Both the position numbers and the translations under genes were made by a program. From positions 62,001 to 126,000 of the forward strand of contig JALWTX010000022.1 of the NCBI GenBank assembly GCA_026993355.1: a DNA stretch of 64,000 nucleotides. The letters are read 5' to 3'. This stretch comes from Flavobacteriales bacterium. GTDB taxonomy: Bacteria > Bacteroidota > Bacteroidia > Flavobacteriales > Flavobacteriaceae. Under the pieces are notes generated by a model that saw nothing but the letters and a program-made list of their open reading frames with translations, was not told the DNA's origin and made no database searches. Below are positions 57,258 through 59,518 of the stretch, in pieces (position 1 is the stretch's first letter; the number at the start of each line of letters is the position of its first letter).

Positions 57258-57283
57258 AAGCCGGAAATATTTCCGGCTTTTTT
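57258..57283 (+). terminator. Rho-independent terminator after mdh
   Basis: AAGCCGGAAATATTTCCGGCTTTTTT. Confidence 0.85.
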
Positions 57284-57351
57284 ATTATTCATCAGTTTAT
57301 TTCATATATTTTTCATTATATTTATAGTCATAAACATAAAAAAATACCACT

Positions 57352-59472
57352 ATGAAAATTTATGATAACAAACACATTAAAAATGTTGCCTTTGTTGGCG
57401 CCCACGGCAGTGGCAAGACCACGCTTGCCGAAACAATGTTATACGAAGCCGGTTTATTAAAACGACGTGGTAGTGTAGAAAACAAAAATACGGTTTCGGA
57501 TTTTACGGAAATAGAAAAAGAAAGACAAACATCAATTTTTGCGACACCTTTACATACTGAATGGCGAAATTATAAAATAAATATTATAGATACCCCCGGA
57601 CTGGACGATTTTATTGGCGAAATTATTTCGGCCATGCGTGTGTCCGAAACGGCCTTAATGGTTATAAACGGTCAGCATGGGGTAGAAGTAGGCACCGAAA
57701 TTATATGGAATTATATCAATCGTTTTAACCGGCCAACTGTTTTTGTCATCAACCAAATAGACCACCCGGATGTAGATTTTGAAGAAGCTTATAACAGTAT
57801 TGTAGATTTGGTGGGAAAAAATGCGGTAAAAATACAATTTCCTCATAAAATGCCGGATGGACGACCGGCTATTATCGATGTATTAAAAATGAAAATGTAT
57901 GTTTTTGGTCCGGAAGGTGGCAAGCCTGAAAAACATGACATTCCTGATGAACATAAAGAATTGGCTGAAATGCTTCATAATGAATTAGTTGAAAAAGCAG
58001 CAGAAAATGAAGAAGAGTTAATGGAGCTCTTTTTTGAAAAAGGCAGTCTGAATGAAGATGAAATGAAAAAAGGCATCAAAAAAGGAATGTTAAACTTAGA
58101 ATTATTTCCGGTATTTATTATGTCGGCTTTAAATGATATGGGTAGTGGCCGGTTAATGGGTTTTATAGACAATGTAACGCCTTCGGCATTGGATATGCCG
58201 GCTGAGCAAAGTTTGGAGGGAGAGATTATTGAACCCAAACTTGATGCCGATCCTTCCATATTTGTTTTTAAAACAAAATATGAACCAAATGTTGGAAAAA
58301 TCAGTTATTTTAAAGTAAAATCCGGTGAAATTAAAACAGGGGACAAGCTTTTAAATACCCGTACGGGTGAATTAGAAAATTTGGGACAATTATATATTAT
58401 TAATGGTAAATTACGGGAGCCAGTAGATAAATTAGTAGCAGGGGATATTGGGGCAGTGATTAAACTTAAAACAACTGAAACAAGTGATAGCTTATCAGCC
58501 CCGGAACATAAAATAAGCTTTAAACCGATTCAGTTTCCTGCACCCAGAATTCGAAAAGTTGTAAAAGCTGCAAACAAAAATGAAGAAGAAAAATTGCAAG
58601 AAGCACTGAAAAAAATTCACAGCCAAGATCCGACAGTTGTCGTAACCTATGACAAAGAAATGAAACAGCAGATTTTGGGTTGTCAAGGTGAATTGCATTT
58701 GGCTATCGTCGATTGGTTACTACAAAAAGAATATGGCATTAAAGCTATTTTTGAAAAACCGCGTATTTCCTACCGTGAAACCATTCAACGTTCAGCATCT
58801 GCCAGTTATCGCCATAAAAAACAATCGGGGGGTGCCGGGCAGTTTGGCGAGGTGCATCTGAAAATAGAACCATATTATGAAGGCATGCCCGATCCGGACA
58901 GCTTTCCTGTAAGAGGCAAAGAAGAAGAAAAATTACCTTGGGGCGGCACTTTGCAATTTATCAACTCTATTGTTGGTGGTGTAATTGATGCCCGTTATTT
59001 ACCTTCCATCAAAAAAGGAATTTTAGAAGTGATGGAAGCCGGTCCTTTGACAAAATCCCCGGTTAGAGATGTACGGGTAATTGTTTATGATGGTAAAATG
59101 CATCCGGTCGATTCTAATGATATTTCTTTTAAAATAGCAGGAGCCAATGCTTTTAAACAAGCTTTTTTAGATGCCAACCCAAAATTGCTTGAACCTATTC
59201 AGGAAGTTACAGTGAAAATGCCTGAAGAAATGATGGGAAATGTGATGACGGACTTGCAAAGCCGGCGAGCCATAATTATGGGAATGGAAACTGCAGGAAA
59301 ATATCAAAAAATTAAAGCACGGGTTCCTTTAGCAGAAATGTATCGCTATTCAACCAGTTTGCGCTCCTTAACCCAAGGACGTGGAACTTTCACATCTGAA
59401 TTTGCCGGATATGAAATGGTCCCTCAAAATATTCAAGAAGAATTGATTAAACAAAATAAAGACGAAGCCTAA
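57352..59472 (+). CDS. Elongation factor G paralog (EF-G2-like) with degenerate GTPase motifs
   Basis: GAHGSGKTT P-loop, DTPGLDDF (canonical DTPGHVDF), NQID (canonical NKxD), ERQTSI (canonical ERGITI); domain IV RISYRETIQRSASASYRHKKQSGGAGQFGEV, C-terminal SLRSLTQGRGTFTSEFAGYEMVP. Confidence 0.92.
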   Translation: MKIYDNKHIKNVAFVGAHGSGKTTLAETMLYEAGLLKRRGSVENKNTVSDFTEIEKERQTSIFATPLHTEWRNYKINIIDTPGLDDFIGEIISAMRVSETALMVINGQHGVEVGTEIIWNYINRFNRPTVFVINQIDHPDVDFEEAYNSIVDLVGKNAVKIQFPHKMPDGRPAIIDVLKMKMYVFGPEGGKPEKHDIPDEHKELAEMLHNELVEKAAENEEELMELFFEKGSLNEDEMKKGIKKGMLNLELFPVFIMSALNDMGSGRLMGFIDNVTPSALDMPAEQSLEGEIIEPKLDADPSIFVFKTKYEPNVGKISYFKVKSGEIKTGDKLLNTRTGELENLGQLYIINGKLREPVDKLVAGDIGAVIKLKTTETSDSLSAPEHKISFKPIQFPAPRIRKVVKAANKNEEEKLQEALKKIHSQDPTVVVTYDKEMKQQILGCQGELHLAIVDWLLQKEYGIKAIFEKPRISYRETIQRSASASYRHKKQSGGAGQFGEVHLKIEPYYEGMPDPDSFPVRGKEEEKLPWGGTLQFINSIVGGVIDARYLPSIKKGILEVMEAGPLTKSPVRDVRVIVYDGKMHPVDSNDISFKIAGANAFKQAFLDANPKLLEPIQEVTVKMPEEMMGNVMTDLQSRRAIIMGMETAGKYQKIKARVPLAEMYRYSTSLRSLTQGRGTFTSEFAGYEMVPQNIQEELIKQNKDEA

Positions 59473-59490
59473 TTAATTTGTTTTTATGAT

Positions 59491-59518
59491 AAGGCAGCCA
59501 ATGGCTGCCTTATTTTTT
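59491..59518 (+). terminator. Rho-independent terminator after EF-G paralog
   Basis: AAGGCAGCCAATGGCTGCCTTATTTTTT. Confidence 0.8.

Follow-up and report, generated by a model that had tools for sequence, protein, structure and literature searches.

The EFG II subfamily was described by Margus et al. in 2011 as carrying type I residues that differ from those of EFG I, together with loss of the RGITI motif, serine at its fourth position, and NKxD as the conserved G4 motif (PMC3150367). Thermus thermophilus EF-G-2 has been reported to possess ribosome-dependent GTPase activity, and the EF-G2 of M. smegmatis binds nucleotide and has no ribosome-dependent GTPase (PMC3832671; PMC3150367). In two papers, Bacteroides thetaiotaomicron EF-G2 is cited as a factor with which translation or translocation proceeds in the absence of GTP hydrolysis (PMC10294740; PMC12775393). 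In E. coli EF-G, the H91A substitution lowers single-round hydrolysis sevenfold, to 1/7 of the wild-type rate (about 28 per second), and H91Q causes hardly any loss (PMC4532990). For the H92A variant, hydrolysis and Pi release are described as severely impaired, yet multi-turnover translocation remains (PMC12775393), which makes it plausible in mechanistic terms that translocation can proceed when hydrolysis is not normal.

The window, the 64,000-nucleotide stretch of DNA analyzed here, belongs to a Bacteroidota genome (G000; 2.2 Mb, 99% complete). It contains a complete open reading frame for an EF-G paralog, running from ATG to TAA with no internal stops (Table 1), and EF-G domains II to V were all found in its 706-residue product with Pfam. 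The sequence-only reading of this DNA had called the gene a paralog and had suggested alignment with the canonical EF-G of the same genome. A GTP_EFTU domain search located that canonical factor at locus L002 (G000:C21), with the motifs AHIDAGKT, ERGITI, DTPGH, and NKMD and 34% identity to the window protein; the gene in the window is therefore a second EF-G and not the only one. Its closest relatives in the genome collection come from Flavobacteriaceae or Flavobacteriales metagenome-assembled genomes, at up to 95% identity; cultivable relatives in Winogradskyella or Lutibacter are about 65-70% identical. A malate dehydrogenase-like gene (mdh) precedes the gene, and after it comes a pair of genes interpreted as NAD(P) transhydrogenase. 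The proposal that the paralog occupies its own transcription unit with terminators on both sides was borne out, with a terminator-like hairpin at each end of the gene. In near relatives (L009, L010, L012, L016, and L017), the stem on the mdh side is kept with different base pairs, supporting its identity as a real terminator.

Table 1. Features of the EF-G paralog locus, numbered from the first nucleotide of the window.
Feature	Positions	Strand	Evidence
Terminator-like hairpin between mdh and the EF-G paralog	57258-57279	+	fold -13.6 kcal/mol
Conserved upstream block; TATATTTA at 57317-57324, then GTCA	57308-57351	+	comparison with relatives
fusA2-like gene for a 706-aa elongation factor G paralog of the EFG II type	57352-59472	+	profiles, marker residues, structure match
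P-loop GAHGSGKT, residues 16-23; Gly16 typical of EFG II; Gly19 for Asp of AHIDAGKT	57397-57420	+	
Switch I / G2 ERQTSI, residues 57-62; Ser61 for Mg-binding Thr, Thr60 for hydrophobic-gate Ile	57520-57537	+	
Switch II / G3 DTPGLDDF, residues 80-87; Leu84 (57601-57603, CTG) for His	57589-57612	+	
G4 NQID, residues 134-137 (AAC CAA ATA GAC)	57751-57762	+	
Domain IV insert region YYEGMPDPDSFPVRGKEEEKLPWG, about residues 508-531, edges alignment-dependent	58873-58944	+	block-mean pLDDT about 84-92
Terminator-like hairpin 3' of the EF-G paralog	59488-59514	+	fold -18.9 kcal/mol

Upstream of the gene, the element TATATTTA lies about 28 to 35 bases 5' of the ATG. The block containing it is also conserved where relatives have another gene upstream, which supports its assignment as a probable promoter of the paralog's own. 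In Bacteroides, the fusA2 promoter has a site for the regulator Cur (BT4338), associated with induction by carbon starvation. A consensus for Cur has been published (PMC6989115). We found no match to this consensus (TATGTTNTANAACATA, allowing up to 3 mismatches) near the start codon; a diverged site or another regulator is possible. The starvation role that had been proposed for the gene is therefore carried over by homology only.

We assigned the protein to a family by profile scores and marker residues. It passed the NCBIfam model NF009381 (elongation factor G subfamily) with 877.2 bits against a cut-off of 583, came slightly under the cut-off of 1000 for NF058620 (EFG2_Bacteroid) with 986.9 bits, and fell below the cut-off of 659.4 for the canonical EF-G model TIGR00484 with 553.8 bits, having PGL and not PGH. 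We rejected assignment to the tetracycline ribosomal protection proteins (NF012153, 283.7 bits, cut-off 775). The type I markers of Table 1 of Margus et al. (Gly16, Leu25, Ser61, Thr291, Gly333, and Lys352 in 1WDT numbering) were mapped through an alignment with Thermus EF-G, and all six are present, as G16, L25, S61, T308, G352, and K371. RGITI is replaced by RQTSI, with serine at the fourth position, and an EFG I gene is found elsewhere in the genome. Because all six marker residues are present, the product is an EFG II protein, and it belongs to the branch that holds Bacteroides EF-G2. The closest solved structure by sequence is 7uvp/8dmf. An AlphaFold model built from 29 sequences (mean pLDDT, 85.5) gave ribosome-bound B. 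thetaiotaomicron EF-G2 (8dmf) as its best Foldseek match (TMq 0.89, 49% identity). Kinship with Bacteroides EF-G2, which had been suggested from the letters alone, thus holds in structure as well as in phylogeny, where both fall in one insert-bearing clade (SH-aLRT 99). The molecule name in 7uvp/8dmf is "Tetracycline resistance protein TetQ," yet the title of 8dmf reads "ribosome-bound Bacteroides thetaiotaomicron EF-G2"; EF-G2 genes could therefore be mislabeled as resistance genes through name transfer.

The three G-domain departures described in the sequence-only reading, Leu84 in switch II, NQID in G4, and ERQTSI in switch I, are all present in the sequence. Its description of the P-loop as intact needs qualification: although it makes a good Walker A motif, it lacks the translational-GTPase form, since the Asp of AHIDAGKT is Gly in AHGSGKT. 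Overall, the protein keeps GKT, the Mg-coordinating Ser61, DxPG, Asn134, and Asp137, whereas the Asp of the P-loop, the Ile of the hydrophobic gate, and the switch histidine have given way to other residues. The combination is what a protein that binds GTP but hydrolyzes it inefficiently might show, although it is no proof. NKxD is listed in PMC3150367 as a conserved G4 motif of EFG II. The Gln found here at the Lys position is common among relatives and not diagnostic, because Gln (84), Lys (55), and His (19) all occur there among 159 insert-type members. Nor does Leu84 prove an absent GTPase: Thermus EF-G-2 carries GHAGSGKT, DAPGY, and VTKLD (PDB chain 1wdt) and is reported to hydrolyze GTP on the ribosome. 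The sequence-only reading is sound on kinship and goes too far on mechanism: its step from the His-to-Leu change and NQID to a lack of GTP hydrolysis is weak.

To place the histidine loss in time, we gathered 239 EF-G sequences from genomes of the Bacteroidota phylum and divided them into three groups by motif and loop length. The sequences were picked by search rank, one per genus where practical, so the group counts are not unbiased frequencies: 30 canonical sequences, all 30 of which retain the switch histidine, the Asp of the P-loop, and the Ile of switch I; 50 without His and without an insert (Leu 27, Tyr 20, and Phe 3 at the histidine position); and 159 without His and with an insert (Leu 70, Tyr 47, Phe 15, Thr 14, Ser 8, and others 5). 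The switch histidine is thus absent from 209/209 EFG II-type sequences and present in 30/30 canonical EF-Gs. On a 71-row tree (IQ-TREE, LG+C20+F+G4), the histidine state changes once (non-His clade, SH-aLRT 100), as does the domain IV insert (insert clade, SH-aLRT 99). The no-insert group was paraphyletic in the IQ-TREE tree and a weakly supported clade in FastTree (support, 0.31); under either topology, and assuming a root on the canonical side, His loss predates gain of the insert. Leu84 is therefore an inherited subfamily character, and we rejected a recent loss in this genome, the loss being old and common to the subfamily. Since the loss is shared by the whole EFG II subfamily, the protein is of an already known kind and no oddity of this genome.

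The same collection held further divergent EF-Gs. One sequence, L189 (genome G128), is sister in the tree to all remaining insert-type sequences; its G4 is TKVA, with both Asn and Asp lost, and the insert is present. A Chlorobi-like EFG II group (L089 to L117, L231, and L235) mostly has TKLD at G4, with Asn lost as in Thermus EF-G-2. Some genomes carry two further EF-Gs (L220, L223, and L227 in G279, G247, and G105, with partners L221 and L228), one of each pair with the switch I insertion KDG; G105 and G247 carry EFG II besides this pair. KDG is the mark of spdEFG1, a type restricted in PMC3150367 to spirochaetes, planctomycetes, and delta-proteobacteria.

The domain IV insert, absent from the sequence-only reading, is a better functional pointer than the histidine loss. 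Between the domain IV anchors, the window protein has 31 residues, compared with 11 to 24 in canonical EF-Gs and 11 in no-insert EFG II proteins. Thirty-one residues is also the length in 152/159 insert-type sequences, and a length of 40 residues was confined in this set to four Bacteroides-type EF-G2 sequences, relative to which the insert in the window is 9 residues shorter. In the model, it forms a strand-loop-strand element predicted with good confidence. In the Bacteroides-like genome G230, EF-G2 and canonical EF-G have 40 and 14 residues between the anchors, a difference of 26. Han et al., in 2023, reportedly described a 26-residue region unique to EF-G2 without which the factor fails in protein synthesis and in release from the ribosome, and which is said to be responsible for the missing GTPase. 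We infer that this region is the domain IV insert; if so, nearly all insert-type sequences (152/159) hold a version that is 9 residues shorter.

Matches to NF058620 above about 730 bits were detected in 152/392 sampled genomes of the phylum (a hand count of 150 listed genomes, with G195 and G199 added on their best E-values) and in 8/46 genomes of the window's own family group. Best E-values were 1e-218 or stronger for the insert type and 1e-172 or weaker for all others, a wide gap that isolates the insert type; the no-insert type is not cleanly split from canonical EF-G by this model. NF009381 is unfit for counting EF-G2 genomes because canonical EF-G passes its cut-off too. Against near relatives, dN/dS was 0.02 to 0.05, ratios that are rough because dS is near saturation. 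Retention is patchy and sequence constraint strong. Peptide patterns matched no viral contig, and the only plasmid-collection matches above 40% identity were three Bacteroidales records; on these grounds a mobile or viral origin was rejected.

We favor, with a probability of roughly 0.6, the interpretation that this EFG II-type EF-G, encoded beside a canonical EF-G, is a slow, GTP-sparing or GTPase-silent translocation factor. The protein would bind GTP, since GKT, Ser61 for Mg coordination, DxPG, and both Asn and Asp of the G4 motif NxxD are retained, and would sit on the ribosome like EF-G, with binding itself promoting translocation. Ribosome-stimulated hydrolysis would be absent or slow because three residues, the switch His, the Ile of the hydrophobic gate, and the Asp of the P-loop, have all been substituted. 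The factor would then need hydrolysis less for leaving the ribosome, a step in which the insert of domain IV is the likely helper; in the Bacteroides EF-G2 study, release was reportedly helped by an EF-G2-specific region. Its role would be in slow translation that saves GTP at times when little canonical factor is available. The analysis itself establishes the subfamily markers, the domain architecture, the shared insert, a single origin of the His loss, purifying selection, and a separate transcription unit; our search returned no biochemistry for the protein or its near relatives. Points against this interpretation are the Thermus GTPase, the shorter insert, the 49% identity, the narrowly missed NF058620 cut-off, and the missing Cur site. 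A rather unlikely alternative is that ribosome-bound protein still hydrolyzes GTP usefully fast by a route independent of His, its main differences from canonical EF-G lying in expression or in which ribosome state it acts on. Thermus EF-G-2, with PGY, VTKLD, and GHAGSGKT, is reported to have ribosome-dependent GTPase (PMC3832671; PMC3150367), and E. coli H91A retains about 28 per second in single-round hydrolysis (PMC4532990). The Chlorobi-like EFG II group is without the domain IV insert, which weakens this alternative. To our knowledge, Thermus EF-G-2 is without it too, and Bacteroides EF-G2 is the single insert-bearing member with reported biochemistry. That member is reported in PMC10294740 and PMC12775393 to have no GTPase.

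A main role in ribosome recycling, rescue, or protection, and not in elongation, seems improbable. Paralogs in Borrelia and mitochondria do split translocation from recycling, according to work cited in PMC3832671, and TetQ is the name that Bacteroides EF-G2 received on deposition. However, tetracycline-protection models score far under cut-off (283.7 versus 775), the tree places the protein in the EFG II clade apart from spdEFG-like types, and Bacteroides EF-G2 is reported in PMC12775393 to support translocation. Decay of a functionless duplicate, which the divergent G-motifs might suggest, is scarcely credible: strong purifying selection (the dN/dS values above) already contradicts it, open frames are full-length in nearly all insert-type genomes among the matches listed, and the upstream block is conserved.

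Extending the translocation-factor interpretation, we tentatively propose, as a possibility we would not yet bet on, that GTP-independent translocation is an ancient trait of insert-bearing EFG II proteins across Bacteroidota and no speciality of gut Bacteroides, gained after His, the P-loop Asp, and RGITI were lost. Lineages far from the gut, like this one, would then use GTP-independent translocation with a shorter insert. If the insert branch translocates without hydrolysis, about two fifths of the sampled Bacteroidota genomes (152/392) carry a GTP-sparing translation factor. Canonical EF-G, His-less proteins without an insert, His-less proteins with a short insert, and His-less proteins with a long insert form an ordered natural series, and the causes of GTPase loss and of ribosome release are therefore testable.

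Compared with the described systems, the window protein most resembles B. thetaiotaomicron EF-G2 (BT2167, fusA2; 8dmf, 7uvp), with which it shares full-length EF-G architecture, an MKxY start, a switch II lacking His (PGLDDF in the window protein, PGSDDF in EF-G2), an NQxD motif, Ser in G2, and the insert. It departs from that protein in having DTPGL and ERQTSI in place of DCPGS and EYGYSV, in insert length, and in the Cur-like site, which was not found upstream. With the EFG II subfamily of PMC3150367 it has in common the six type I markers, the loss of RGITI, Ser in G2, and an EFG I partner; NQID here differs from NKxD there. Thermus EF-G-2 (1WDT; Foldseek TMq 0.81) likewise lacks the switch His and has a similar P-loop, but carries Tyr where this protein has Leu and TKLD in place of NQID, and has a reported GTPase (PMC3832671). 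The canonical EF-G of the same genome shares the five-domain fold, whereas its PGH, RGITI, AHIDAGKT, and NKMD motifs, and its domain IV without the long insert, set it apart from the second EF-G described here.
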